Source: Oscillibacter sp. (lineage in GTDB: Bacteria; Bacillota; Clostridia; Oscillospirales; Oscillospiraceae). From it: a stretch of DNA of 14,061 nt. The position numbers were made by a program, and so were the translations under genes. Below, piece by piece: positions 1 to 13,599 of the stretch. The notes beneath the pieces were generated by a model. It was not told the DNA's origin, searched no databases, and saw nothing but the letters and a program-made list of their open reading frames with translations. Location of the stretch: the NCBI GenBank assembly GCA_017380995.1, contig JAFOCY010000135.1:1-14061 (forward strand). The letters are read 5' to 3'. Position 1 is the stretch's first letter; each line of letters starts with the position of its first letter.

Positions 1-327
1 GGGGACCTTCGGAAAGCGCAGATAGTCATATACCCGCTTGTGGCGCGCCCGCTCATAGGCGTTGGCGGCCCCGCCGCCCAAAAGAAGGCCGGACCATAGC
101 GGCGCCTCCTTCCGCTTCCTCCAGGCAAAGAGCAGCGCCAGGGCGGAAAGCGCCCCTACCAGTGCTTTGGGCGCAGGGAGGGAAAAGGCCGCGCCGGTGT
201 TCCACACCTCTGTCATCTCCACGCAGCCCTTGAGATGGAGGGTATCCTTCCGGGAGGTGCGGTGGAGATACACCCGCACCAGTCCCGCGGCGGAAAAGAC
301 CGCCGCCGCGATCAGCAGCGTCATCAT
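1..327 (-). CDS. Divergent signal peptidase II (LspA)-like membrane protein, C-terminus cut off by the window edge
   Basis: Only the first 109 codons are visible. LspA is the polytopic aspartyl protease that cleaves prolipoprotein signal peptides. Two LspA signatures are seen: N43-T-G-A-A-F, matching the family N-x-G-A-A-F motif, and G84-G-G-x-x-N89-x-x-E92-R followed nine residues later by D101, matching GGAxGNxxDR then VxD. D101 aligns with the catalytic Asp124 of Pseudomonas LspA. The second catalytic Asp (FNxAD motif) would lie beyond the edge. Oddities: the conserved Asp of NxxDR is Glu92, and the first helix (residues 3-21) lacks the usual Asp-x-x-x-K. Hydrophobic stretches fall at about 3-21, 54-69 and 77-90. 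The ATG overlaps the stop of the upstream GTPase-nuclease gene (ATGA), with a purine-rich ribosome site (GGGGGAGAA) inside that gene's end. A housekeeping lspA is probably elsewhere, so this may be a paralogue with altered specificity or activity. Confidence 0.65.
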   Translation of the reverse strand, partial: MMTLLIAAAVFSAAGLVRVYLHRTSRKDTLHLKGCVEMTEVWNTGAAFSLPAPKALVGALSALALLFAWRKRKEAPLWSGLLLGGGAANAYERARHKRVYDYLRFPKVP

Positions 328-2951
328 GCCTTCTCCCCCTTTTGTGCCTTTTCCAAAGCGGCGCGGACCGCCCCGGTTTTGTTATTCTGGTTGTTCCGGG
401 CAAGGACCTGGGTGATCTGGCCCTCCACCCGCTCCACCTCCTCGCGGAAATTGGAGGCAGAGAGGCGCAGTGCGCCGTGACCGAGGATAATGAGCTGCTC
501 GGGACCATCGGAGGTGGCCACCTTCACCCGGTACTTTCTTCCCAACTCGTAGGTGGTGCGCTCGATATAGGCGTCAGCCGTCTCCGCTTCCTTGGTGTAG
601 ACCACATGGATGTTGTGGTATTTTTCCACGCTCCCGGGGTTTCCCTTCACCCGGTAGGCGTCAAACACGGCGATGACCTCACACTTTTTGTAGCCCTGGT
701 AATTGCAAAGAAGGTCGCACAGGGCTTTCCGGGCGGCGTCCAGGTTGTCCCGGGCAATTTTTTTCAGCTCCTCCCAGGCGAAAATGATATTATAGCCGTC
801 CACCAGCAGGTATTCCTTCTGGGGCGCCCGGTCGGGAACGGAGCGCTTTTCCAGCTCCGTACTCACCGCGGCGCTCCGGGGCGGCTGGAAGGAGCGGTTT
901 TTCACCGGGCCGTAGGTCCGCTCGAAGATGGCCTGCAGCTCCTTATCCTGGGCCACCGTCCCCTCATAGGAGCTGGGGCGGCGGGAAGTATTGGCCTCTT
1001 TGGGCTTATCCTCCACTGCCGGGCGCAGGACGCTTTGGAGGTGGGCCATGGCGGGAACCTCCTGCCATTTCACGTTGTACCCCGCGCCGTGGCCGCAGAA
1101 CACAGAGTCCGCCGTGTTCTCCACATCCCGCTCCGGATCGTAGCCAAGGGCCTTGATGACCTGCTCCGCCTCGGCGCAGGGGCGGTAGCCGGCAAGGACC
1201 ATGCTGAGCCTCCCCCGTCCCCGGGTATAGGCCGTGACCTCCCGGGCGTAGTTGCGCATCTGGGCAACCGGCGCGCTGCCCGTGAGGATGGTCTCCTCTC
1301 CAAAGGTCTCCGGGGGCTCCGTCTCGCCGTTCATCCGCTGCAGGTCGCTGATGGCCCGTCCCAGCTGCTCCGTGGGAAGCTCCAGGCGGAACTCATACCA
1401 AGGCTCCAGCAAAACGCTTTTGGCACTCATCAATCCTTGGCGCACGGCCCGGTAGGTGGCCTGGCGGAAGTCTCCGCCCTCGGTGTGCTTCAAATGGGCC
1501 TTGCCGGCGGCCAGGGTGATCTTCATATCCGTGATGGGCGAGCCGGTGAGGACACCCAGGTGGTCCTTTTCCATCAGATGGGTGAGGATGAGCCGCTGCC
1601 AGTTGCGGTCCAGCTCGTCCTCGGGAACAATGGAGGCAAAGTGCATACCGCTGCCCCGGGGGGCGGGCTCCAGCACCAGATGGACCTCCGCATAGTGGCG
1701 CAGCGGCTCAAAATGGCCGATGCCCTCCACCCGATTTTCAATGGTCTCCCGATAGAGGATACTGCCGCTGCCAAAGCCGATCTCCAGGCCGAAGCGGTCC
1801 CGGACCAAGCGCTGTAAGATCTCCTGCTGGACCTCGCCCATCAGCTCAATGGCGATCTGCCGGGCACCCTCGTTCCAGAGGATGTGGAGCTGGGGATCTT
1901 CCTCCTCCAACTGCCTGAGCTTCAAAAGAGCGGTGTGGGGGTCCGTCCCCTCCGGCAAAAGGACCTGGTAGGTCAGTACCGGCTCCAGCATAGGCGCCGT
2001 CCAGGGCCCCTCAAAGCCCAGGCCGTCGCCGGGGCGGGTCTGGGTCAATCCGGTGACCGCCACCACGCTGCCGGCCTCGGCGCAGTCCACGGGGCGGAAC
2101 TTGGCGCCCGAATACAGGCGCAGCTGGTCCGCCTTCTCCTCCCAGGGGTTTTCGCCGCCCCGCAACACTTCCTTGGTCCGCAAGGCGCCGCCGGTGACCT
2201 TCAGGTGGGTCAGGCGGTTGCCCTGGCCGTCCCGGGTGATCTTGAAGACACGGGCGCCAAATTCACTGCCGTAATCCGGGACGGGGGCGAAGCGCTCCAA
2301 GCCCTCCATCAGCTCCTCCACGCCCTCCAGCTTCAAGGCCGCGCCGAAAAAGCAGGGAAAGAGCTTCCGCTTTCCCACCATCTGCCCGATCAAACCATCC
2401 GTCAGCGTTCCGGTCTCAAAATACTGCTCAATAGCCGCCTCATCGCAGGCGGCAGCTTCTTCATAAAGGGTATCTTCCGCTGCGCCAAAATCCACGCAGC
2501 CAGGACTCAGGCGCTGCTTCAAACTCTCCATCACCTGCGCGCGGTCTGCCCCCGCCAGGTCCATTTTGTTGACAAACAGAATGGTGGGCACGGCGTACCG
2601 CTCCAGCAGCTTCCACAGGGTCCGGGTGTGACCCTGGACGCCGTCGGTACCGCTGATGACCAGCACCGCGCAGTCCAACACCCGCAGCGTCCGCTCTGCC
2701 TCTGTGGAAAAATCCACATGGCCCGGGGTATCCAGCAGCGTCACCTGAGTATCTCCCAGGGAAAATACCGCCTGCTTGGAAAAAACGGTGATACCCCGCT
2801 CCCGCTCAATGGCATCCGTATCCAAAAAAGCGTCGGCATGGTCCACCCGGCCAAGCTTGCGAATGGCGCCGCTGCGGTAAAGCAGGGCCTCGGAAAGGGT
2901 GGTCTTGCCCGCGTCCACGTGGGCCAGGATGCCTAAAACCAGTTTCTTCAT
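324..2951 (-). CDS. TetM/EF-G-like translation GTPase fused to a C-terminal Rae1/YacP-like NYN endonuclease domain
   Basis: 875 residues. The N-terminal ~640 residues have the layout of ribosomal protection proteins and EF-G: P-loop AHVDAGKTT (10-18), switch I RERGIT (Thr55), DTPGHVD (74-80, catalytic His78), NKMD (128-131), then domains II-V. The domain IV tip reads roughly KAHLKHTEGGDFRQ where TetM has YSPVSTPADFR, so the residues TetM uses to dislodge tetracycline are absent. After a conserved extension and a low-complexity linker (~640-711), residues 712-860 form a NYN/PIN-like domain strikingly like Bacillus Rae1 (YacP): LLVDGYNII (Asp718), VFDA (Asp764), VKG, TKEAETAD (Asp793), VATSD (Asp815), GALRLSA. 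Rae1 is known to enter the ribosomal A site and cut mRNA. I infer a translation factor that docks on ribosomes and cleaves or rescues mRNA. ATG start with GGAGT upstream. Overlaps by ATGA with both neighbours. A simple tetracycline-resistance call would be misleading. Confidence 0.9.
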   Translation of the reverse strand: MKKLVLGILAHVDAGKTTLSEALLYRSGAIRKLGRVDHADAFLDTDAIERERGITVFSKQAVFSLGDTQVTLLDTPGHVDFSTEAERTLRVLDCAVLVISGTDGVQGHTRTLWKLLERYAVPTILFVNKMDLAGADRAQVMESLKQRLSPGCVDFGAAEDTLYEEAAACDEAAIEQYFETGTLTDGLIGQMVGKRKLFPCFFGAALKLEGVEELMEGLERFAPVPDYGSEFGARVFKITRDGQGNRLTHLKVTGGALRTKEVLRGGENPWEEKADQLRLYSGAKFRPVDCAEAGSVVAVTGLTQTRPGDGLGFEGPWTAPMLEPVLTYQVLLPEGTDPHTALLKLRQLEEEDPQLHILWNEGARQIAIELMGEVQQEILQRLVRDRFGLEIGFGSGSILYRETIENRVEGIGHFEPLRHYAEVHLVLEPAPRGSGMHFASIVPEDELDRNWQRLILTHLMEKDHLGVLTGSPITDMKITLAAGKAHLKHTEGGDFRQATYRAVRQGLMSAKSVLLEPWYEFRLELPTEQLGRAISDLQRMNGETEPPETFGEETILTGSAPVAQMRNYAREVTAYTRGRGRLSMVLAGYRPCAEAEQVIKALGYDPERDVENTADSVFCGHGAGYNVKWQEVPAMAHLQSVLRPAVEDKPKEANTSRRPSSYEGTVAQDKELQAIFERTYGPVKNRSFQPPRSAAVSTELEKRSVPDRAPQKEYLLVDGYNIIFAWEELKKIARDNLDAARKALCDLLCNYQGYKKCEVIAVFDAYRVKGNPGSVEKYHNIHVVYTKEAETADAYIERTTYELGRKYRVKVATSDGPEQLIILGHGALRLSASNFREEVERVEGQITQVLARNNQNNKTGAVRAALEKAQKGEKA

Positions 2952-3679
2952 GCAGACACTCCAATCAGTTTCTCAAAAAGGGGCAGCAGGGTATAGAGCA
3001 CCGGCTGGTGGGCCATATAGACCAGCAGGGACCGCCGTCCCATGGCGGTGACAACAGGCACCGGACGGAGGATCAGGTCCTCCCGCTCCGGGCGAAGCCT
3101 GGAAAGAAAGACCCCTGTCCAGAACAAAAAAAGCCAGGGCAGGAGGGGAAAATAGTCCGAGGAGGTGAACCCGGGAGGCGGGAATCCCAGCACGGCGGTC
3201 AGGAGACTCGTCCCCCGGGGAAGAGCGGCGATATGCAACCCTTCAAAGCCCAAAAAGCCCTCATTCACATCCCGAAACAGCATAAACAGGGCAAAGGACA
3301 CCCCCAGGCCCAGATGGGGCGGGATGCAGCGCAGTGCCTTCTTCAGGGGAGCGCTGATGAGTGTGGCAAGGCCCAAAAAGGTCAGCACGCCGCAAAAGAT
3401 GGGAGCCTCAGGCAAAACCACATAGGTCACAGCGCTGACGATGGCGCCGGCGGAAAAGGTGACGAGGCCCCTTCGCACAGGCCGGCGGCCCAGGAAAAAG
3501 CAGTAGCCGGAAAGAAGGATGAAGGTCCAGCAGATGCTTTGCTGCCACACATAGGCCCCAAAGGAGCGGTACCAGGACCAGTCCGCCCCCAGGAGATAGA
3601 CAAAATCCCAGCAGGCGTGATAGCCGATCATGCTGATCAGGGCCACGCCCCGCAGCGTATCAATATCCTGATGGCGCAT
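2948..3679 (-). CDS. DUF1624 / heparan-alpha-glucosaminide N-acetyltransferase-like integral membrane protein
   Basis: 243 residues, multi-pass membrane protein. The family signature is clear at the N-terminus: D-x-L-R-G-V-A-L-I-S-M-I-x-Y-H-A-C-W-D (about residues 6-24), then FILLSGYCFFLGRR, the TYVVLPEAPIFCGVLTFLGLA region, a Y-F-P-L-L-P-W segment and the C-terminal M-G-R-R-S-L-L-V-Y-M-A-H-Q-P-V motif. These are hallmarks of bacterial DUF1624 (HGSNAT catalytic) proteins, presumed to move acyl groups across or at the membrane. The substrate is unknown. I chose the ATG at 3679 because GGGAGGG lies just upstream and homologous N-termini begin close to this motif. Earlier in-frame codons (to 3781) would run through the promoter. 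First gene of a three-gene operon; its TGA overlaps the ATG of the GTPase-nuclease gene. Confidence 0.85.
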   Translation of the reverse strand: MRHQDIDTLRGVALISMIGYHACWDFVYLLGADWSWYRSFGAYVWQQSICWTFILLSGYCFFLGRRPVRRGLVTFSAGAIVSAVTYVVLPEAPIFCGVLTFLGLATLISAPLKKALRCIPPHLGLGVSFALFMLFRDVNEGFLGFEGLHIAALPRGTSLLTAVLGFPPPGFTSSDYFPLLPWLFLFWTGVFLSRLRPEREDLILRPVPVVTAMGRRSLLVYMAHQPVLYTLLPLFEKLIGVSA

Positions 3680-3710
3680 CCGCAGCCCTCCCTTCTCATC
3701 ATAACAATTT

Positions 3711-3739
3711 ATCATAGCATACCCGAAAAACATTTTCAA
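3711..3739 (-). promoter_or_regulatory. Sigma-A promoter of the three-gene left operon
   Basis: On the minus strand the -35 box TTGAAA (3734-3739) is followed by a 17-nt spacer and the -10 box TATGAT (3711-3716), with TG one base upstream (extended -10). It lies about 30 nt before the DUF1624 start codon, leaving a short leader with its ribosome site. An inverted repeat CAACC-GGAAG-GGTTG (3737-3751) overlaps the edge of the -35 box and could be an operator. That last point is a guess. Confidence 0.75.
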
Positions 3740-3752
3740 CCGGAAGGGTTGG

Positions 3753-3781
3753 TTGCATCCGCCCACGGACCATGGTAACAT
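3753..3781 (+). promoter_or_regulatory. Possible weak promoter of the alpha/beta hydrolase gene
   Basis: TTGCAT (3753-3758), a 17-nt spacer and TAACAT (3776-3781) have ideal spacing but only partial match to consensus. Transcription would start near 3788, just before the ribosome site. It points away from the promoter at 3711-3739, giving a compact divergent promoter region. Confidence 0.35.
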
Positions 3782-3791
3782 GAACGCAGAA

Positions 3792-3797
3792 AGGGAG
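3792..3797 (+). promoter_or_regulatory. Shine-Dalgarno site fixing the hydrolase start
   Basis: AGGGAG ends 8 nt before the ATG at 3806. An in-frame GTG at 3797 overlaps this site and so cannot be the start. Confidence 0.75.
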
Positions 3798-3805
3798 TGG
3801 TTTTC

Positions 3806-4609
3806 ATGCTGAAAAATGGACGGATCACCCTGGAGAAAAACGTCACCATGGATTACGTGGCCTTTGGCCGGGGAACACGGCCCCTGGTCATCCTCCCAGG
3901 TCTTGGAGACGGCCTGCGGGGCGTGAAGGGCACAGCCCTTCCCATGTCCATCCTGTACTGGGCCTTTTCCAAAGACTTCCGGGTGTACCTCTTCAGCCGC
4001 AAAGACCCTCTGCTCCCCAGCCGTACCACCCGGGATTTTGCCCGAGACCAGAAGGCCGCCATGGACCGTCTTGGGATCTCAAAGGCTGATGTGGTAGGCG
4101 TTTCCCAGGGCGGTATGATCGCCCAGTTCCTTGCCATCGACTACCCGGAAGCCGTGGGCAAGCTGGTGCTCTGCGCCACCTGTCCCCAGCCAAATCCCAC
4201 CCTGGAGACCGCTGTGACCCTTTGGATGCGGATGGCCCGGCGGGGCGATGCCATGAGCCTGATGCGGGACAATGTGGAACGCATCTACTCTCCCCGCTAT
4301 GTCAAGCGTTTGGGGTGGCTGGCTCCCATCGTGGGTCTTTTGACGGCCCCCTCCTCCTTCCACCGCTTTTTGGTGATGGCCCAGGCCTGCCTGGACCACA
4401 ATGCCCTGGAAGAGCTGCCCCGCATTACCGCCCCCACCCTCATCATCGGCGGAGAGCAGGACCGTGTGCTCACAGGCCTGGCCTCTTATGAACTGGCAAA
4501 CAAGATCCCCGGAAGCCGCCTGGTGATGTATCCGGACCTGGGTCACAGTGTCTACGAGGAAGCACCGGACTTTCAAAGCCGGGTGCTGGAGTTTTTGCTG
4601 GAACCATGA
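3806..4609 (+). CDS. Alpha/beta-fold hydrolase
   Basis: 267 residues, soluble, no signal peptide. The alpha/beta-hydrolase catalytic set is visible: an oxyanion-loop motif P31-G-L-G-D-G, the nucleophile elbow G98-V-S100-Q-G-G, the acid Asp219 in IIGGEQD, and His247 in LGHSVYEE. The overall pattern (VVGVSQGGMIAQFLAIDYPEAV, TLIIGGEQDRVL) is that of the broad BioH/3-oxoadipate enol-lactonase-like superfamily, which includes esterases, lactonases and C-C hydrolases. The substrate cannot be told from sequence. It is monocistronic: divergent from the left operon, convergent with the ribosomal operon, and it shares the terminator at 4654-4701. Confidence 0.9.
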   Translation: MLKNGRITLEKNVTMDYVAFGRGTRPLVILPGLGDGLRGVKGTALPMSILYWAFSKDFRVYLFSRKDPLLPSRTTRDFARDQKAAMDRLGISKADVVGVSQGGMIAQFLAIDYPEAVGKLVLCATCPQPNPTLETAVTLWMRMARRGDAMSLMRDNVERIYSPRYVKRLGWLAPIVGLLTAPSSFHRFLVMAQACLDHNALEELPRITAPTLIIGGEQDRVLTGLASYELANKIPGSRLVMYPDLGHSVYEEAPDFQSRVLEFLLEP

Positions 4610-4724: not shown

Positions 4725-5066
4725 TTAGACCAGCTCGATGATACCAGTCTCGGCGGCGTCGCCGCGGCGGACGCCGGTACGGATGATGCGGGTGTAGCCA
4801 CCGTTGCGCTCAGCGTACTTGGGGGCGATCTCCTTGAACAGCTTCTGGGCAACATCCTCACGGGTGATGAAGGCCAGAGCCTGGCGGTAAGCAGCCAGGT
4901 CGTTCTTCTTGCCGAGGGTGATCATCTTCTCGGCCAGGGGCTTGATCTCCTTGCAACGGGTGATGGTGGTCTCCATCTTGCCGTGATCCAGGAAATCAGT
5001 GACCTGCTGACGCAGCATAGCCATACGCTGGTCAGTAGTCTTGCCAAGTTTACGAGTTCCGGGCAT
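4725..5066 (-). CDS. rplQ: 50S ribosomal protein L17
   Basis: 113 residues, full length for bacterial L17. It starts [20 protein letters not shown], the usual L17 opening, and ends with the [20 protein letters not shown] block. L17 sits near the peptide exit tunnel of the large subunit. Last gene of the operon, 56 nt after rpoA, in the standard position. The gap holds a small GCCGG/CCGGC hairpin (5098-5112) and then AAGGAGG 8 nt before the ATG. Transcription ends at the terminator about 25 nt downstream. Confidence 0.98.
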
Positions 5067-5122
5067 GTCGGTTTCCTCCTTATCAGGATTTAGGTCAGCC
5101 GGGAGTTCCGGCGTTGAATCAG

Positions 5123-6073
5123 TTAGTTGTTCTCTTCGTCAGCCAGATGGAGACCCATCATAGCCAGCTTGTTGATGACCTCTTCCAGGGACTTGCGGCC
5201 CAGGTTGCGGACCTTCATCATCTCGTCCTCGGTCTTGGAGATCAAGTCCTCGACGGTGTTGATGTTGGCGCGCTTGAGGCAGTTGAAGCTGCGGACAGAG
5301 AGATCCAGCTCTTCAATGGTCATCTCCAGGACCTTGTCGCGCTGGGCCTCGGCCTTCTCCACCACGGTGGGCTTGCTGCCCACGTTTTCACTCAGGTCAG
5401 TGAAGAGGGTGAAGTGGTCGCAGAGGATCTTGGCGCCCAGGGACACAGCATCTCTTGCGGAGATGGTGCCGTCGGTCCAGACCTCCAGGGTCAGCTTGTC
5501 AAAATCGCTGGAAGCGCCCACGCGGGTAGGCTCCACGGTGTAGTTCACCTTGTACACAGGGGTGTAGATGGAGTCCACAGCGATGGTGCCGATGATGTTC
5601 TGCTGGGGCTTGTTGCGGTCAGCGCTCACATAGCCACGGCCGTGAGACAGGGTGATCTCCATGTTCAGGGTAGCACCGTTGTCCAGGGTAGCAATGTGCA
5701 TATCGGGGTTCAGAACCTCGACCTCGCCATCGGCCTTGATATCGCCGGCAGTCACCACGCAGGGACCAACAGCCTCGATATAGACCGTCTTCACAGTCTC
5801 GCTGTGCAGCTTCGTCAGGAGGCCCTTCACATTCAGGACGATCTCCGTCACGTCTTCCTTCACACCGGGGATGGTGGAAAACTCATGCTGGACACCGGCG
5901 ATCTTAATGGTGGTCGGAGCGGTGCCGGGCAGAGAGGAAAGCATAATGCGGCGGAGCGCGTTGCCCAGAGTCGTACCGTAACCGCGCTCAAGCGGTTCCA
6001 CGACATACTTGCCGTAAGTCACGTCACCGGGAGCCTCGATACATTCGATCTGGGGCTTTTCAATTTCGATCAT
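5123..6073 (-). CDS. rpoA: DNA-directed RNA polymerase alpha subunit
   Basis: 316 residues, typical length. The N-terminal domain carries the assembly motif [26 protein letters not shown] near residues 27-52. The C-terminal domain has the helix-hairpin-helix DNA- and activator-contact region ([13 protein letters not shown], then [12 protein letters not shown]), with the Arg equivalent to E. coli Arg265. The start is the ATG at 6073 ([10 protein letters not shown]), where AAGGAGGG sits 7 nt upstream. An in-frame codon at 6109 would add 12 unusual residues and place the ribosome site inside the gene. It follows an 84-nt gap after rpsD containing a strong hairpin. Confidence 0.98.
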
Positions 6074-6080
6074 GCAGTTA

Positions 6081-6088
6081 CCCTCCTT
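6081..6088 (-). promoter_or_regulatory. Shine-Dalgarno site fixing the rpoA start
   Basis: AAGGAGGG on the minus strand, 7 nt before the ATG at 6073. It favours this start over the upstream in-frame codon at 6109. Confidence 0.85.
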
Positions 6089-6100
6089 CATCTTCTCATT

Positions 6101-6122
6101 GCGGCGCACAACCGTGCGCCGC
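6101..6122 (-). other. Stable GC-rich hairpin in the rpsD-rpoA gap
   Basis: A perfect 9-bp stem GCGGCGCAC/GTGCGCCGC with a 4-nt loop lies 12 nt upstream of the rpoA ribosome site. No U-run follows, so it is not an intrinsic terminator. Possible roles are protection or processing of the mRNA, or setting rpoA expression relative to rpsD. Confidence 0.7.
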
Positions 6123-6157
6123 GGTCAGTTCCTACCATTATCGAGGGTACCTTCCAA

Positions 6158-6784
6158 TTACTTGGAGTACAGCTCGACGATGAGGTGCTCCTCGATGGGA
6201 AGATCGATGTCCTCACGGGCGGGTTCTGCGACGACCTTAGCCACGTTGTTCTTGTCCATTTCCAGCCACTTGGGGACCACGCGGGAAGCGTTGGCCTCCA
6301 GAGCGCCCTTGAACTTGTCCAGGCTGCGGGAGCCTTCCTTCAGCTCGATGACATCGCCGGTCTTCACCAGGTAAGAGGGGATGTTGACCTTCTTGCCGTT
6401 GACGGTGAAGTGGCCGTGACGGACCAGCTGACGAGCCTCAGGACGGCTCATAGCGAAGCCCAGACGGTACACGACGTTGTCCAGACGGGTCTCCAGGATG
6501 GTCAGCAGGTTCTCACCGGTCATGCCGGCCTTCTTGTTGGCCATCTCGAAGTAATCAGCGAACTGGCTCTCCAGCATGCCATAATAGCGCTTGACCTTCT
6601 GCTTCTCGCGCATCTGGATGCCGTACTCGCTCAGCTTCTTGTTTCTTGCATTGCCGTGCATACCGGGAGCATAGCTACGACGCTCCACAGCGCACTTGTC
6701 GGTATAGCAGCGGTCGCCCTTCAGGAAGAGCTTCTGGCCTTCTCTGCGGCAAAGGCGGCAGACTGCACCGGTATATCTTGCCAT
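6158..6784 (-). CDS. rpsD: 30S ribosomal protein S4 (zinc-binding form)
   Basis: 208 residues. The N-terminus has four cysteines C9-x2-C12-x13-C26-x4-C31, the zinc-binding (C+) version of S4. The S4 RNA-binding domain follows ([34 protein letters not shown]). S4 is a primary 16S-binding assembly protein and a known translational autoregulator in several bacteria. Position between rpsK and rpoA is normal for Clostridia, whereas in B. subtilis rpsD lies elsewhere. GAGGAGG precedes the ATG; 21 nt after rpsK. Confidence 0.98.
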
Positions 6785-6805
6785 ATTGCTTTACCTCCTC
6801 TTTAA

Positions 6806-7207
6806 TTACACGCGGCGACGCTTGGGGGGACGGCAGCCGTTGTGGGGGATGGGAGTGACGTCCTTGATCATGGTCACTTCCAGGCCGACAGCCTGCAGGG
6901 CGCGGATAGCAGCCTCGCGGCCCTGGCCGGGGCCCTTGACGAAGACCTCAACGGTCTTCAGGCCGTGCTCCATAGCAGCACGGGCAGCGGTCTCAGCAGC
7001 GGTCTGAGCTGCGAAGGGAGTGGACTTCTTGCTGCCGCGGAAGCCGAGGCCGCCGGAAGAAGCCCAGGAGATGGCGTTGCCCTGGGTATCAGTGACAGTC
7101 ACCATGGTGTTGTTGAAGGAAGAACGGATATGGACCTGGCCACGCTCAATGTTCTTCTTTTCGCGACGGCGGCGAATAACCTTCTTGCCGTTCTTTGCAG
7201 TTGCCAT
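6806..7207 (-). CDS. rpsK: 30S ribosomal protein S11
   Basis: 133 residues, platform protein of the small subunit. Diagnostic stretches are [38 protein letters not shown] and the C-terminal [18 protein letters not shown]. The lysine- and arginine-rich N-terminus is normal. AAGGAGGG precedes the ATG; 15 nt after rpsM. Confidence 0.98.
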
Positions 7208-7222
7208 TTTCGTTCTCCCTCC

Positions 7223-7588
7223 TTACTTCTTCTTGTTAGCAATGGTCTTCTTGGGACCCTTGCGAGTTCTTGCGTTGGTCTTGCTGCGCTGGCCGCGGAC
7301 AGGCAGGCCCTTGCGATGACGCAGGCCGCGATAGCAGCCGATCTCGCTCAGACGCTTGATGTCCAGGGCAGTCTGGCGGCGCAGGTCGCCTTCGACGGTA
7401 TAAGCGTCGATAGCGTCACGGAGCAGGTTCTCCTCGGCGTCGGTCAGGTCCTTGACGCGGGTGTCGGGGTTGACACCAGTCTTCTCCAGGATGTCCTTGG
7501 CAGTCTTTCTGCCAATGCCGTAGATATAGGTGAGGCCGATCTCGATACGCTTATCCTTCGGCAGGTCAATACCGGCAATACGTGCCAT
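7223..7588 (-). CDS. rpsM: 30S ribosomal protein S13
   Basis: 121 residues, head protein contacting the P-site tRNA. It opens [20 protein letters not shown], contains the helix-two-turns-helix region and [20 protein letters not shown], and ends in the basic tail [23 protein letters not shown] lies before the ATG; 26 nt after rpmJ. Confidence 0.98.
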
Positions 7589-7614
7589 ACTCTTAAAGCA
7601 CCTCCAATTAAATG

Positions 7615-7746
<132 letters not shown>

Positions 7747-7785
7747 TCAGCGGTTTGTGTCATTTACTAAATTCGCCTGGGGCTC

Positions 7786-8004
7786 TCACTTGGAGCGCCA
7801 GGTGATCCGGCCGCGGGTCAAGTCATACGGGGACATTTCCACCGTAACCTTGTCGCCGGGCAGAATCCTGATGAAATTCATTCTGAGTTTCCCGGAAATA
7901 TGCGCTAAAATTGTGTGTCCATTTCCAATGTCAACCTGGAACGTCGTGTTGGGCAGAGCTTCCACCACAACACCTTCCACTTCGATCATATCGGATTTTG
8001 CCAA
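7786..8004 (-). CDS. infA: Translation initiation factor IF-1, TTG start
   Basis: 72 residues, an S1/OB-fold protein that binds the ribosomal A site during initiation. The sequence [20 protein letters not shown]...[20 protein letters not shown]...[10 protein letters not shown] is unmistakable. The start codon is TTG: AGGAGGG lies 7 nt upstream and the resulting MAKSD N-terminus matches the family. The next ATG (7989) would delete five conserved residues. It is 3 nt after the KOW-protein gene, so the two are probably translationally coupled. Confidence 0.97.
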
Positions 8005-8007
8005 ACG

Positions 8008-8292
8008 TTATCCCTCCTGGCTCGGATGAACCTCCTCGCGGTAAGCCGCGAGGGTCCTTCGAAGTTCACTGTTTGTGATCTTCTCGTTATTCTTGATCTT
8101 CTCGGAAACGCGGGTCTCCTCGGCGGCCACGAAAAGCACATGTCTTCTCTTCTTCCGCTTGGGAGCTTCCACTCTCCGGGATTTTCCGTCTGCCAGCAGG
8201 AGGTACTCCCCCTCCACCGCAAGAACGACGAAGAGCTTGCCCTTGTCTCTGCCGGCATCGGAACGAATGATGTTTGATTGTGCAATTTCCAT
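8008..8292 (-). CDS. Small KOW-domain RNA-binding protein (L14e-like)
   Basis: 94 residues. After MEIAQSNIIRSDAGRDKGKLFVVLAVEGEYLLLADGKSRRVEAPKRKKRRHVLF comes a highly charged tail. The first half is a KOW motif (residues ~9-45: a G-R-D-K-G-K turn between beta strands) followed by a basic patch. Such proteins recur between map and infA in Clostridia and Bacillota relatives, usually named KOW-domain or L14e-like. The role is not established; ribosome or rRNA binding is inferred from the fold and location. The ribosome site is poor (AAGAAG), so expression may depend on coupling with map, 16 nt upstream. Confidence 0.85.
   Translation of the reverse strand: MEIAQSNIIRSDAGRDKGKLFVVLAVEGEYLLLADGKSRRVEAPKRKKRRHVLFVAAEETRVSEKIKNNEKITNSELRRTLAAYREEVHPSQEG
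8012..8018 (-). promoter_or_regulatory. Shine-Dalgarno site that decides the infA TTG start
   Basis: AGGAGGG on the minus strand, inside the end of the KOW gene, with 7 nt before TTG at 8004. Confidence 0.85.
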
Positions 8293-8308
8293 ACGCTTCT
8301 TCTTACTT

Positions 8309-9061
8309 TCAGATGGCGGGAGCGGTGAGGATCTCAGGCTCGCCGTCAGTAATCAGGACCGTATTCTCATAGTGTGCAGACCACTTGCCGTCCAGCGTCT
8401 TGACGGTCCAGCCGTCGCTGAGCTGCCGGATGGCGGCGCCGCCTGCGTTCACCATGGGTTCGATTGCAAGGGTCATGCCTCTGAGGAGCCGGGGGCCCCG
8501 GCCGCTTCTTCCGAAGTTGGGGACCTCAGGGTCTTCGTGCATCGCCGCGCCTACGCCGTGACCGACGTATTCCCGGACGATGGAAAAGCCGTTGCTCTCC
8601 ACATAGGTCTGGATGGCAGAAGAAATATCTCCCACCCGGTGACCCTCTTTCGCGTAGCGGATGCCCTCGAAGAAGCTCTGGCGGGTCACATCAATGAGCC
8701 GCTGGGCTTCCGGATCGATGGTACCGCAGGCGAAGGTGGCACAGCAGTCTCCGTGGAATCCTCCGACACAGGCGCCCACATCGATGGACACGATATCGCC
8801 CTCCTGCAGCACCCGTTTTCCGGGGATGCCGTGGATGACCTCATCGTTCACACTGATGCAGATGCTGGCGGGAAAGCCATACAGGTGAAGGAACGAAGGC
8901 GTTGCACCCTGCTTGCGAATGAATTTCTCCACTGCCTTGTCGATCTCTTGGGTCGTTACGCCGGGCTTTACCATTTCCCCTGCAAAAGCACGGGCAGCCG
9001 CGGTAATTTTTCCAGCCTGACGCATCAATTCGATCTCGTGGGAAGATTTCAATTTGATCAT
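8309..9061 (-). CDS. map: Type I methionine aminopeptidase
   Basis: 250 residues; removes the initiator Met from nascent proteins at the ribosome exit. All dinuclear metal ligands are present: Asp94 (SIDVGA), Asp105 (GDCC), His168 (VGHGVG), Glu201 (AIEPM) and Glu232 (HYENT), with substrate-contacting His77. The length is the short type Ia form without an SH3-binding N-terminal extension. GGGGAG upstream lies in the end of adk. The gap to adk is only 3 nt, implying coupling. Confidence 0.97.
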   Translation of the reverse strand: MIKLKSSHEIELMRQAGKITAAARAFAGEMVKPGVTTQEIDKAVEKFIRKQGATPSFLHLYGFPASICISVNDEVIHGIPGKRVLQEGDIVSIDVGACVGGFHGDCCATFACGTIDPEAQRLIDVTRQSFFEGIRYAKEGHRVGDISSAIQTYVESNGFSIVREYVGHGVGAAMHEDPEVPNFGRSGRGPRLLRGMTLAIEPMVNAGGAAIRQLSDGWTVKTLDGKWSAHYENTVLITDGEPEILTAPAI

Positions 9062-9064
9062 TGA

Positions 9065-9697
9065 TTATCTCCCCAGCACACGGAGAATAGCCTCGGAGTT
9101 TTCAGCCACAGTGGGCTGGTTCTCCACCGGCCGCAGAAGACCGCGCTCGGCGTAATAAGCCTTCAAAGGCTCGGTCTTCTTATGATAGACCTCAAGCCGT
9201 GCACGCACGGTCTCGGGTTCATCATCCTTTCGGCGGACGAGCTTGCAGCCGCAAGTATCGCACACGCCTTCAGCCTTGGGAGGCACAGCTACCACATGGT
9301 AGCTGGCTCCGCAATGCTCACAGACGCGGCGGCCACCCATGCGGTCCATGATGACCTCGTCAGAGATCTCCAGGGAAACCACATGGTCGAATACGATTCC
9401 TGCTTTCTCCAGGGATTCAGCCTGAGCGATGGTGCGGGGCACGCCGTCCAGAATGTATCCGTCTTTGCAGTCCTCCTCGGCCACCCGCTCGTGGATGATC
9501 TCAATGATCACCTCATCGGGGACCAGCTTGCCTGCATCCATGTAATGCTTGGCTTCCAGGCCCACGGGGGTGCCGTCCTTGATGGCGGCGCGGAGGATGT
9601 TGCCGGTGGAGATCGTAGGGATGCCCAACATCTTGGAGAGGATCTCAGCCTGGGTGCCCTTACCGGCACCAGGGGCTCCCAACAGGATCAGTTTCAT
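9065..9697 (-). CDS. adk: Adenylate kinase (zinc-lid form)
   Basis: 210 residues; interconverts ATP+AMP and 2 ADP. P-loop GAPGAGKGT is at 7-15, followed by the AMP-site motif STGNILRAAI. The LID carries C-E-H-C ... C-D-T-C, the four-Cys zinc site typical of Gram-positive adenylate kinases. One small oddity: the AMP-binding motif reads DGVPRT rather than the usual DGFPRT. AAGGAGG precedes the ATG; 16 nt after secY. Confidence 0.97.
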   Translation of the reverse strand: MKLILLGAPGAGKGTQAEILSKMLGIPTISTGNILRAAIKDGTPVGLEAKHYMDAGKLVPDEVIIEIIHERVAEEDCKDGYILDGVPRTIAQAESLEKAGIVFDHVVSLEISDEVIMDRMGGRRVCEHCGASYHVVAVPPKAEGVCDTCGCKLVRRKDDEPETVRARLEVYHKKTEPLKAYYAERGLLRPVENQPTVAENSEAILRVLGR

Positions 9698-9713
9698 GAA
9701 GTGCCTCCTTGTC

Positions 9714-11090
9714 TTACTCCAGGAAACCCTTATACTGACGCATCAGCATCTGGTTTTCCAGAGACTTGACGGTCTCCAGAGCAACACCGACCACGATGAT
9801 GACGGAGGTACCGCCGATACCGATGGAATCATTGCCGATCAGCTTGGAAGCCAGGATCGGGCAGATGGACACGATAGCGAGGTAGATAGCGCCGAACATG
9901 GTGATCTTGTTGAGGACCTTCTTGATGAAGTCAACGGTGGGCTTACCGGGGCGGAAGCCGGGGATGAAGCCACCCTGCTTCTTCAGGTTGTTGGCGATCT
10001 CAACGGGGTTGAACTGGATGCTGGAGTAGAAGTAGCTAAAGCCAATGATCATCAGGAAGTACACCAGGATATAGATGGCGGACTGTGCGTCAATGGCGTC
10101 GTAAATAGCGCGGGAAATGGTGCCCTCGGCAGGGATGCCGATGAAGCTCCAGATGGTGATGGGCAGAGAAGCGATGCTCTGGGCGAAGATGACGGGCAGA
10201 ACGCCGGACATATTCACCTTCATGGGCAGGTTGCTGCTCTGGCCGCCGTACATCTTACGGCCCACCTGACGCTTGGCGTACTGCACGGGGATGCGGCGCT
10301 CAGCGTCCTGGATGAACACGATGAAGACGATCAGGGCCAGGATGCCAACCAGCAGCAGGGCAACGCCCCAGGGAGCCATGGCGCTGTTCAGAACGTTCTG
10401 AGCGGCAGCCTCGCTGTAACCCACGGACATCAGGCCCTCCAGGGTCAGGGTGCCCTTCTGGACAGAAGACCAGGTCTGGACACCGGAGACCATGCCGGAG
10501 ATCATGGTAGGCACGCGGGAGATGATGCCGGCGAACAGGATCACGGAGATACCGTTGCCAACACCGAACTCGGTGATCTGCTCGCCCATCCACATGACGA
10601 ATGCGGAACCGGCGATCAGGGACACAACAATGACCAGAGCAGGCCAGATGCCGTCAGCACCGGAGGCCAGCAGGCCATAGTTCTTCATCATCATGTAGTA
10701 GCCAACAGCCTGCAGCACAGCGATACCAACGGTGGTATAGCGGGTGATGGACTGGATCTTTTTACGGCCTTCCTCGCCGCCGTCGCGGGCCAGTCTCTCC
10801 AGATAGGGGATGGCCACGGTCAGCAGCTGGATGATGATGGAGCTGTTGATATAGGGCTGGATGCTCAGGGCAAACACCGTGGCGGTAGCGAAAGCGCCAC
10901 CGGACATCACGTTGTACAGACCCAGGATGGTAGCACCCATGGAGTCGAGCTGCATCTTCAGCGCATCAACGTTGATATAGGGAACGGTGATGGCGTTGCC
11001 GATCCGGAAGATCAGCAGCATGAGGAGAGTAAAGATGATCTTCTTCCGCAGCTCGGGGATGCCCCAGGCTTTGCGAATAGTCTGGATCAC
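9714..11090 (-). CDS. secY: SecY, channel subunit of the Sec translocase
   Basis: 458 residues with ten predicted membrane helices. Landmarks are the N-terminal amphipathic AWGIPELRKKI, the helix 2 region L-S-I-Q-P-Y-I-N-S-S-I-I-I-Q-L, the cytoplasmic loop with L-A-R-D-G-G-E-E-G-R-K-K-I, Y-A-K-R-Q-V-G-R-K-M-Y-G-G-Q-S-S and the late loop F-I-P-G-F-R-P-G-K-P-T. The start is GTG at 11090, one nucleotide after the rplO stop, with GAGGTG 7 nt upstream inside rplO; tight translational coupling is expected. Confidence 0.97.
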   Translation of the reverse strand: MIQTIRKAWGIPELRKKIIFTLLMLLIFRIGNAITVPYINVDALKMQLDSMGATILGLYNVMSGGAFATATVFALSIQPYINSSIIIQLLTVAIPYLERLARDGGEEGRKKIQSITRYTTVGIAVLQAVGYYMMMKNYGLLASGADGIWPALVIVVSLIAGSAFVMWMGEQITEFGVGNGISVILFAGIISRVPTMISGMVSGVQTWSSVQKGTLTLEGLMSVGYSEAAAQNVLNSAMAPWGVALLLVGILALIVFIVFIQDAERRIPVQYAKRQVGRKMYGGQSSNLPMKVNMSGVLPVIFAQSIASLPITIWSFIGIPAEGTISRAIYDAIDAQSAIYILVYFLMIIGFSYFYSSIQFNPVEIANNLKKQGGFIPGFRPGKPTVDFIKKVLNKITMFGAIYLAIVSICPILASKLIGNDSIGIGGTSVIIVVGVALETVKSLENQMLMRQYKGFLE

Positions 11091-11091
11091 G

Positions 11092-11532
11092 TTACATCAC
11101 CTCTGCCTTTCCGCCGACTGCCTCGATAGCCTCCTTGGCAGAAGCGGAGAAAGCAGAAGCCTGCACAGTGACCTTCTTGGTCACCTTGCCGTTGCCCAGG
11201 ACCTTGAAGCCATACTCGCACTTGGCGAGGATGCCCTTGGCCAGCAGAGCCTCGGCGTTAACGATCTCACCATCCTCGAAAGCGTTCAGGGCGCTGAGGT
11301 TGATGATCTCCAGGGGCTTTGCGAAGATGTTGTTGAAGCCGCGCTTGGGGATACGGCGGGACAGAGGCATCTGGCCGCCTTCGAAGCCCACGCGGACCTT
11401 GCCGCCGGAACGGGCCTTCTGGCCCTTGTGGCCGCGGCCGCCGGTCTTGCCGTTGCCGGAGCCTGCGCCACGGCCCTTACGATAAGCCTCGCGGACGGAG
11501 CCGGCAGCGGGAGACAGTTCGTTGAGTTTCAT
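11092..11532 (-). CDS. rplO: 50S ribosomal protein L15
   Basis: 146 residues. The glycine- and arginine-rich N-terminus (L-S-P-A-A-G-S-V-R, then [24 protein letters not shown]) that threads into 23S rRNA is followed by [20 protein letters not shown], the L15 signature. AAGGAGG precedes the ATG; 14 nt after rpmD. The last codons overlap the ribosome site of secY. Confidence 0.97.
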
Positions 11533-11546
11533 AGTTCCGTGCCTCC

Positions 11547-11729
11547 TTACTTCACTTCGGTGACCTGCAGCAGGTAGCCGATCTTGGCGATCTTGCCGCG
11601 GGTCTGGTCGTTATCGGGCTGCACGGTGATATCACCGATCTTGCGCAGGCCCAGGGAATGTGCGGTGGCAACCTGCTTCTCCAGGCGGCCGTTCAGGCTC
11701 TTGACGAGCTTAATGTTGATGTTTGCCAT
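11547..11729 (-). CDS. rpmD: 50S ribosomal protein L30
   Basis: 60 residues, the short bacterial L30. It reads [15 protein letters not shown], then a central [11 protein letters not shown] and [12 protein letters not shown]; the L-G-L-R-K segment is the family hallmark. AAGGAGGG lies upstream; 15 nt after rpsE. Confidence 0.97.
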
Positions 11730-11744
11730 TGTATAGCGCCCTCC

Positions 11745-12245
11745 TTAACCCAGGATCTCTTCGACGCTCTTGCCGCGGATGCGGGCAACGGTCTCGGGAC
11801 CGCGCATGCTCTTGAGGCCTGCGAAAGCAGCGGCGACGACGTTGTTGGGGTTGTTGGAACGCAGGCACTTGGTACGGATGTCCTTGATGCCTGCAGCCTC
11901 GACGACGGCACGGACAGCGCCGCCGGCGATGACGCCGGTACCGGGGGCGGCGGGCTTCATCAGCACGCGGCCTGCGCCAGCCTCACCGATGGTCTCGTGA
12001 GGAATGGTGCTGCCGGACAGGGTCACAGTGATCATGTTCTTCTTGGCAGACTCGATACCCTTGCGGATAGCCTCGGGGACCTCAGCGGCCTTACCCAGGC
12101 CGTAGCCCACCTTGCCCTTACCGTCGCCAACGACGACCAGGGCGGAGAACTTCATAACGCGGCCGCCCTTGACGGTCTTGGAGACACGGTTCAGGTAAAC
12201 GACCTTCTCAATGAGCTCGCTCTGCTCTCTTTCAAATCTAGGCAT
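11745..12245 (-). CDS. rpsE: 30S ribosomal protein S5
   Basis: 166 residues. The N-terminal double-stranded-RNA-binding part has [11 protein letters not shown] and [20 protein letters not shown]. The C-terminal part has [21 protein letters not shown]5 lies at the mRNA entry site and affects decoding fidelity (the conserved loop is the site of spectinomycin-resistance mutations). AAGGAGG upstream; 20 nt after rplR. Confidence 0.98.
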
Positions 12246-12265
12246 TGTGTCGTTTCCTCCTTCGA

Positions 12266-12625
12266 TTAAAACTTCAGGCCGCCTTCACGGGCGCCATCAG
12301 CCAGAGCCTGGACGCGGCCGTGGTACAGGTAGCCGCCGCGGTCGAAGACCACGTTCTCGATACCCTTAGCCAGAGCGCGCTCGGCAACCAGCTTGCCAAC
12401 AGCGGTAGCAGCAGCAATGTTGCCGCCGTAACCTTCGATGGCCTTGTCGAGGGAGGAAGCAGAAGCCAGGGTCACGCCGTTGACGTCATCGATGACCTGA
12501 GCGTAGATGTTGGCTTCGCTGCGGAAAACATTCAGACGGGGCATCTCGGGGGTGCCGGAGATCTTGCCGCGCACTCTCTTGTGGCGCTTGAGACGCTGAG
12601 CGTTGGTGTTAGGTCTTTTAATCAT
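12266..12625 (-). CDS. rplR: 50S ribosomal protein L18
   Basis: 119 residues, binds 5S rRNA. The basic N-terminus is followed by [18 protein letters not shown] and the conserved C-terminal [33 protein letters not shown] 9 nt before the ATG; 14 nt after rplF. Confidence 0.98.
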
Positions 12626-12639
12626 GTCGGCACACCTCC

Positions 12640-13185
12640 TTACTTCTTGCCGCCGGTCTTACCGACCTTGCGACGGATCACTTCGTCGACATACTTGATG
12701 CCCTTGCCCTTATAAGGCTCGGGAGGACGCTTCTCGCGGACCTCGGCAGCGAACTGGCCGACAGCCTGCTTGTCGCATCCGTTGATGATGATTTTATTGG
12801 GAGCGGGAACATCGATGGTGATGCCCTCGATCTCGGGAACGATCACCTGGTGGGAATAACCCAGGTTCATGACCAGGTTCTTGCCTTCCTTGGCCACACG
12901 GTAACCAACGCCGTTGACCTCCAGCTCCTTCTTATAACCATCGGTAACACCGATGATCATGTTGGCGAGCAGAGTGCGGGTCAGGCCGTGGAGGCTGCGG
13001 TGCTCCTTGGCATCGGAAGGACGAGTCACGGTGATCACATTGCCTTCCTGATTGATGGTCATCTCGCTGCGCAGAGCGCGCTTCAGTTCGCCCTTGGGAC
13101 CCTTGACGGTAACCACGTTGCCCTCGGCAACGGTAACGGTAACACCGGCGGGGACGGTAATGGGCATTCTACCAATTCTGGACAT
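12640..13185 (-). CDS. rplF: 50S ribosomal protein L6
   Basis: 181 residues with the two tandem L6 folds. It begins [15 protein letters not shown], has [19 protein letters not shown] in the second half, and ends with the family signature [13 protein letters not shown] plus a basic tail. L6 sits near the GTPase-factor site. AAGGAGGG upstream; 15 nt after rpsH. Confidence 0.98.
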
Positions 13186-13200
13186 TGTTCAATACCCTCC

Positions 13201-13599
13201 TTACCAGACGAATGCCAGGACCTCACCGCCGACATGCAGCTCGCGAGCCTTCTTGTCGGTCATGACGCCCTTGGAAGTGGAGATGATTGCGATACCCAGA
13301 CCACGCAGAACGCGGGGCAGCTCGTCGGCGCCCACATAGACGCGCAGGCCGGGCTTGGAAACGCGGCGGAGACCGGTGATGACCTTCTCCTTACCGGCGT
13401 TGTACTTCAAGGTGATGTGAATGATGCCCTGCAGGCCGTCATCGATCACATTGAAGCTCTTGATGTAGCCCTCATCCAGCAGAATCTGAGCGATGCTCTT
13501 CTTCATGTTGGAAGCGGGGACATCCACGGTGTCGTGCTTAGCGCTGTTGGCGTTGCGGATACGAGTGAGCATATCTGCAACAGGATCAGTGATATGCAT
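13201..13599 (-). CDS. rpsH: 30S ribosomal protein S8
   Basis: 132 residues, full length. Begins [20 protein letters not shown] and ends with the S8 signature [13 protein letters not shown], then [10 protein letters not shown]8 is a primary 16S binder (helix 21) and, in E. coli, represses translation of the spc operon by binding a helix-21 mimic in its mRNA. Here the gene has its own promoter and a long structured leader, and the leader contains a helix resembling that site, so self-regulation is likely but inferred. AGGAGG (13608-13613) lies 8 nt before the ATG. Confidence 0.98.

Follow-up and report, generated by a model that had tools for sequence, protein, structure and literature searches.

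A single gene of Oscillibacter sp. is predicted to encode a translational GTPase and a YacP/Rae1-like NYN nuclease in one polypeptide, and we put the odds at about even that its product is a GTPase-recruited, ribosome-dependent mRNA nuclease which has replaced Rae1, a 'tethered Rae1'. The gene is a single complete open reading frame (ORF) of 875 residues in contig JAFOCY010000135.1 of assembly GCA_017380995.1, and the whole stretch that was analysed, 14,061 nucleotides, is here called the window. Rae1 is an A-site mRNA endonuclease according to two papers (PMC12320835, PMC6613710). The original prediction, made from the letters of the window, gave the position correctly and left the minus strand unsaid, and its claim of an EF-G-type GTPase and a Rae1-like NYN domain in one polypeptide agrees with the Pfam domains, with all the motifs it named found at its own residue numbering. 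The gene is divided as follows.

324..2951, minus strand: the complete fusion ORF, 875 aa (ORF and Pfam)
2283..2939, minus strand: G domain, GTP_EFTU, residues 5-223, with AHVDAGKTT, RGIT, DTPGH (His78) and NKMD (Pfam, conservation)
2019..2261, minus strand: domain II, EF-G_D2, residues 231-311 (Pfam, 26.5 bits against a cut-off of 27)
1773..1982, minus strand: domain III, EFG_III, residues 324-393 (Pfam, 26.0 bits against a cut-off of 27)
1419..1763, minus strand: domain IV, EFG_IV, residues 397-511 (Pfam)
1431..1505, minus strand: domain IV tip, residues 483-507, GKAHLKHTEGGDFRQATYRAVRQGL (alignment; conserved in the subfamily, differs from the Tet(W/M/S) and EF-G rows)
1167..1415, minus strand: domain V, EFG_C, residues 513-595 (Pfam)
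1032..1151, minus strand: C-terminal block of the subfamily, residues 601-640 (alignment; not in the Tet or EF-G rows)
816..1031, minus strand: linker, residues 641-712 (81 fused proteins)
906..947, minus strand: linker motif EL..IF..TY, residues 669-682 (kept in 76/81 fused proteins)
345..809, minus strand: NYN_YacP nuclease domain, residues 715-869, with D718, N721, D764, D793 and D815 (Pfam, PDB search, alignment, predicted fold)

The matches over the Pfam cut-offs are GTP_EFTU (9.6e-51), EFG_IV (1.2e-15), EFG_C (6.1e-19) and NYN_YacP (1.6e-51), and with its G motifs, the conserved histidine and domains II to V, of which II and III fall just under the cut-off, the N-terminal part belongs to the translational GTPase superfamily. 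There are 7,982 homologues of the protein, and NYN_YacP is present in all 120 of those listed, the first being the window's own; GTPase and NYN are likewise in one frame in each of the best 80 of 350 related GTDB loci (one of which, L037, misses the first 29 residues), so the fusion is not an assembly artefact. These 80 and the window protein were aligned and make up the 81 fused proteins referred to throughout. D718, N721, D764, D793, D815 and H78 are invariant in them, including the three aspartates and the histidine that the original prediction had singled out, and K16 is found in 80, the exception being L037 with its short row. The predicted model of the full-length protein matches EF-G at 1e-51, the best row having TM-scores of 0.42/0.54 and a root mean square deviation (rmsd) of 15 Å, indicating that the domains match EF-G and their arrangement does not.

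By profile, predicted fold and acidic site the NYN part belongs to Rae1/YacP. It scores 175 bits with the NYN_YacP profile against a curated cut-off of 24.6, and a search of the PDB by sequence with the NYN part (168 aa) gave 5mq9 and 5mq8 (Bacillus Rae1/YacP) as the sole matches up to E=10, at 7.8e-27. As the NYN of the full-length model was unusable, the domain was folded apart from the GTPase on a 52-sequence alignment, which gave a predicted local distance difference test score (pLDDT) of 87.9, and the only three fold matches of this model at E<=0.001 are Rae1 chains (5mq8_A at 1.9e-11), the structural match that the original prediction had asked to see. To the 5mq9 chains the rmsd is 1.7-1.9 Å over 136-137 columns with 41% identity, and to 5mq8_A it is 9.1 Å over 162 columns, perhaps owing to a long C-terminal helix. 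D718, D764, D793 and D815 are identical in 45/45 fused and 33/33 stand-alone NYN rows, the free NYN L098 being excluded from the stand-alone group, and we take these four aspartates to be the catalytic residues of Rae1. Two outcomes that would have refuted the original prediction, a C-terminal domain unlike Rae1 in fold and a loss of the catalytic residues, were therefore looked for and not observed. The fold, the conserved acidic residues and about 40% identity are thus common to the fused NYN and Rae1/YacP of Bacillus subtilis, but the latter stands alone, whereas the fused NYN is C-terminal to a GTPase, after a long linker, and is not located beside rlmB-sigH.

Many Clostridia, including gut species, appear from their sequences to carry the GTPase-Rae1 fusion. 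A sample of 243 Clostridia genomes was searched for the YacP domain, with matches in open frames of at least 600 called fused and those in frames of 160-216 called stand-alone. The domain is over the cut-off in 161 genomes, 84 fused, 72 stand-alone and 5 in between, the last with frames of 295-451 that are apparently due to contig edges or frameshifts, and 82 genomes have no match. All 84 fused genomes have a match to the GTPase subfamily described below. Two YacP domains over the cut-off occur in none of the 161 genomes, three second matches being below it at 21 bits, and the own genome of the window (93% complete, 231 contigs) has one, the fused one. The original prediction had asked whether genomes with the fusion lack a separate yacP, and the sampled genomes support this. 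The mutual exclusion of the two forms has p=1.9e-18 with the 5 in-between genomes counted as fused and shared ancestry ignored. There are 47 families with YacP, 19 with the fused form only, 24 with the stand-alone form only and 4 mixed, so that fusions are found in 23/47. When 299 genomes were drawn from the whole phylum, in part the same as those of the class sample, YacP matched in 163, with G441 as the sole case of two matches, each of the stand-alone kind. Most simply, the fusion would have replaced the stand-alone Rae1.

The GTPase is placed by its sequence outside both named families that it resembles. The nearest by score in NCBIfam is tet_protect, with 412.4 bits against a cut-off of 775; the protein has 285.8 bits for EF-G (cut-off 659.4) and 270.4 bits for the M/W/O/S model (cut-off 1100), and the only NCBIfam cut-off reached is that of the generic small_GTP domain, as is also the case for three unfused relatives that were checked. 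In the alignment the domain IV tip is unlike that of Tet(W), Tet(M) and Tet(S) and unlike that of the EF-G-type genes of the own genome, which has further such genes on contigs 203 and 109. The tip stretch KHTEGGDFR is strongly conserved in the fused rows, with variation in the divergent fused proteins L135 and L136, and so is the SVFC.HGAG..V.W core of the block after domain V, which has a looser form in the unfused relatives. A GTPase tree of 55 rows rooted on EF-G, 29 of them fused and 10 Tet, gives the fused rows as one clade (100/100) and the fused and unfused rows together as one clade (100/100), here called the subfamily, with the Tet rows as a separate sister clade (99/94); the unfused rows are not recovered as one clade (20% of bootstraps), and the tree comes with warnings of long branches and of an odd letter make-up in about 20 rows. 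The identity as a Tet ribosomal protection protein is rejected on the curated cut-off, the domain IV tip and the branching, and that as EF-G on the NCBIfam cut-off. The five-domain fold and the GTPase motifs are common to EF-G and the fusion, although the score is far below the EF-G cut-off, and with Tet(M/W/S/O) there are the EF-G architecture and about 30% identity in common, while domain IV tip, C-terminal block, clade and genomic setting all differ. The original prediction of a TetM/EF-G-type GTPase accordingly holds for the architecture and fails for the likeness to TetM in the parts that count.

A profile of the subfamily was searched against the 243 genomes, with five candidates scored per genome, as also for a fused-only profile. 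Full-length fused proteins score 662-998 bits and unfused 963-1101, and the two are separated by open frame and not by score, whereas Tet-like genes score 406-556 bits and in most cases stop close to position 600 of the model (614 in G102). Fragments (second piece of G062, G146, G156, G203) have 429-695 bits. With the fused-only profile the unfused proteins have 730-802 bits and the weakest fused one 797, so that these ranges overlap.

According to Atkinson 2015 (PMC4342817), a YacP-like NYN domain was gained by the Tet proteins of ten species of Clostridiales, for which a possible resistance mechanism was suggested, and the tip loops of Tet proteins dislodge tetracycline. The window protein has the architecture described there, an EF-G/Tet-type GTPase and a YacP-like NYN in one Clostridiales protein, with the same domains and the same host group, so the architecture was already known in 2015; the fusion is called a Tet protein there, while here the GTPase falls in a separate clade and the fusion would stand in for the stand-alone Rae1, the ten species being compared by description only. 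That the protein is an antibiotic resistance factor of the tetracycline type to which an RNase step was added, as that paper suggested and as some record names imply, is very improbable in our view. This would fit tet_protect as the nearest named family, the Tet rows as sister of the subfamily and the Tet name on 4 of the 120 listed homologues, but the score is about half of the curated cut-off, the tip of Tet(W/M/S) is replaced, and 7/84 fused genomes (G029, G212, G242, G041, G023, G135 and G198) have a separate Tet-like gene. On plasmids only 2/72,556 records cover at least 80% of the query, of which one was listed, a 518-kb replicon of Monoglobus, and the window gene shares 4 bases with the neighbour on either side, as an operon member would, with no Rfam family match in the window and so no RNA leader found. 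The names on those 4 homologues are TetM/TetW/TetO/TetS resistance, though the window protein misses the cut-off of that model widely. The tetM of PMC11780869 is a reporter gene.

Unfused GTPases of the subfamily, of about 645-730 aa, are found in 16/243 Clostridia genomes, one of them (G203) broken into two frames and G106 carrying two. These proteins (L119-L132 and L167) are the nearest relatives of the fused clade and have the core of the domain IV tip and a C-terminal block as in the fused proteins, but no nuclease. The suggestion that a related GTPase delivers the stand-alone Rae1 did not hold up as a general rule and was rejected, the two co-occurring in 10/72 stand-alone genomes as against 6/82 genomes with an unfused GTPase among those without YacP (Fisher p=0.20).

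For the origin of the fusion, an NYN tree of 79 rows has a 98/100 branch that separates 45 fused rows and the stand-alone L098 from 33 stand-alone rows, with the contig-edge rows L107 and L108, which align from residues 506 and 571, counted as fused. The bootstrap is unsettled, the fused rows forming one side in no more than 12% of the 200 bootstrap trees owing to the free NYN of genome G209 (L098/L140). This NYN has a start codon immediately ahead of the domain and no GTPase remnant next to it in a 4-kb stretch, and the unfused GTPase of the same genome falls among the unfused rows in the GTPase tree. It is probably a later release from a fusion, judging from these sequences, and both trees are compatible with a single fusion event and the subsequent release of one NYN.

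The usual site of stand-alone yacP is also informative. The 19 stand-alone loci compared were hand-chosen, partly from mixed families, with a 20th (L156) left out and neighbour families named from one member per group; an RlmB-like gene precedes yacP in 14 of them and a SigH-like gene follows it in 15. Among 20 fused genomes examined, rlmB and sigH are both kept within the fetched 1.5 kb in 8, with gaps of 96-586 bp between the BLAST match ends, and yacP is absent between them in 8/8, indicating that it left its usual site in the fused lineages where this site is still visible. Sub-threshold NYN matches occur in two of these gaps, with E 0.024 (G174, reverse strand) and 0.13 (G022), and the remaining 12/20 genomes have neither sigH near rlmB nor an NYN there. 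Nor is yacP next to rlmB in G048 and G209, two further genomes of the stand-alone kind; that of G048 is about 13 kb from rlmB with a SigH-like neighbour and that of G209 is on a contig other than rlmB's. The fusion gene of the window is outside an rlmB-sigH context, between HGSNAT_cat and Peptidase_A8 genes. In G191 (contig 1, 4605806-4613902) some 4.7 kb separate the fused gene from rlmB, with both on one strand, either by coincidence or as a trace of the original site. The RlmB-like rRNA methylase gene upstream in 14/19 loci, together with a Ribonuclease_3-domain gene near yacP in 6, might point to an rRNA or tRNA maturation nuclease that is taken to pre-ribosomes by the GTPase, in line with what had earlier been proposed for YacP-like NYN domains, as cited by Atkinson 2015. 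We consider this improbable, since the published role of Rae1 is that of an endonuclease cutting mRNA in the A site and its conserved acidic set is retained in the fused NYN, and the 82/243 genomes without a YacP match would be odd for a core rRNA step.

Several observations weigh against a dedicated fusion that took the place of Rae1. The free NYN of G209 nests among the fused NYNs, so the link can be undone. At G022 and G191 the rlmB-sigH gaps are 581 and 586 bp, nearly as long as those holding yacP in G206 and G051 (619 and 615 bp; stand-alone genomes of mixed families), and by their length may hold a decayed yacP remnant. Any YacP is missing from 6/16 genomes with an unfused GTPase, the other 10 having a separate one, and 62/72 stand-alone YacP genomes are without a subfamily GTPase at E<=1e-120 among the five candidates scored per genome; as each thus often occurs without the other, the two activities are not mutually needed in general. 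The full-length model has a mean pLDDT of 67.7, with the NYN mostly below 50, and is uninformative on the placement of the NYN. Finally, the own genome (G000) has no SmpB match and no transfer-messenger RNA (tmRNA) over the cut-off, perhaps due to the 231-contig draft; the control of the tmRNA search also gave below-cut-off matches in archaea, so weak matches mean little.

Some of these points would suit a looser arrangement, in which the NYN is an ordinary Rae1 and the GTPase has an independent task, the fusion raising the local concentration at the ribosome without coupling to GTP hydrolysis. The linker is long and variable (68-112 residues, median 77, in the 81 fused proteins), many genomes have one half and not the other, and one NYN is free again; but the motif EL..IF..TY in 76/81 linkers and the presence of the fusion in 23/47 YacP-bearing families suggest more than a chance joining, and we hold such a loose tether to be unlikely.

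Both EF-G and the Tet proteins sit at the factor site of the ribosome, domain IV occupying the decoding region. In a GTPase-recruited nuclease, the GTPase part would dock at the factor-binding site when the A site of the ribosome is free or stalled, and domain IV, its tip unlike those of EF-G and Tet, would enter the decoding region. On GTP hydrolysis domain IV would withdraw or dislodge a blocker of the site, and the NYN, kept local by the linker, could then occupy the A site and cut the mRNA like Rae1, the cut complex being left to trans-translation. Such an order of clearing and then cutting is proposed only tentatively. The two parts have a common target, which they can hardly fill together, and the long linker with its conserved motif suggests an ordered hand-over; by analogy with the known factors domain IV and the NYN would probably act in turn and not together, which is in tension with the 'self-delivering' factor of the original prediction. 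A more far-reaching version is somewhat doubtful, namely a GTP-timed A-site nuclease, in which domain IV of an undescribed subfamily of translational GTPases clears the decoding site and hydrolysis times the hand-over to the tethered Rae1 domain, as a dedicated rescue factor displacing free Rae1 across much of Clostridia, with the unfused relatives as a separate GTPase rescue factor.

Trans-translation could clear the cut complexes in most of these genomes, since SmpB is found in 79/84 fused genomes (230/243 in the class), the fused genomes without a match being G000, G066, G075, G115 and G132. Loss of trans-translation as the reason for the fusion was rejected, as SmpB is present in most genomes of the class and draft gaps are likelier.

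The neighbourhood of the fused gene is not conserved, the largest shared neighbour group being present at 13/81 loci. Its neighbours in the window are the following.

2948..3781, minus strand: upstream gene, HGSNAT_cat acyltransferase family, 4-base overlap with the fusion (neighbour, outside the mechanism)
1..327, minus strand: downstream gene, signal peptidase II-like (Peptidase_A8), 4-base overlap with the fusion, runs off the window (neighbour only)

An ORF run at 4725-13599 on the minus strand is presumably, from its translations, an spc/alpha ribosomal operon. Between it and the fusion side is an alpha/beta hydrolase gene (3797-4609, plus strand), and within it an ORF of 94 aa (8008-8292, minus strand) adjoins a map-like gene and by eye resembles a KOW-type RNA-binding protein.

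Beyond the description of 2015, the analysis adds the separate GTPase clade, the exclusion between fused and stand-alone forms, trees that fit a single origin and an rlmB-sigH site without yacP. No paper tying the fusion to Rae1 or reporting the mutual exclusion was found in a coverage without the main Rae1 papers, which is not proof of absence. Tet-type names on such proteins could inflate counts of resistance genes. If the protein is indeed a GTPase-recruited nuclease in the place of Rae1, it would give a single-protein handle on the choice of ribosome by a Rae1-type nuclease and on the role of the 'Tet-like' GTPases in commensal Clostridia.

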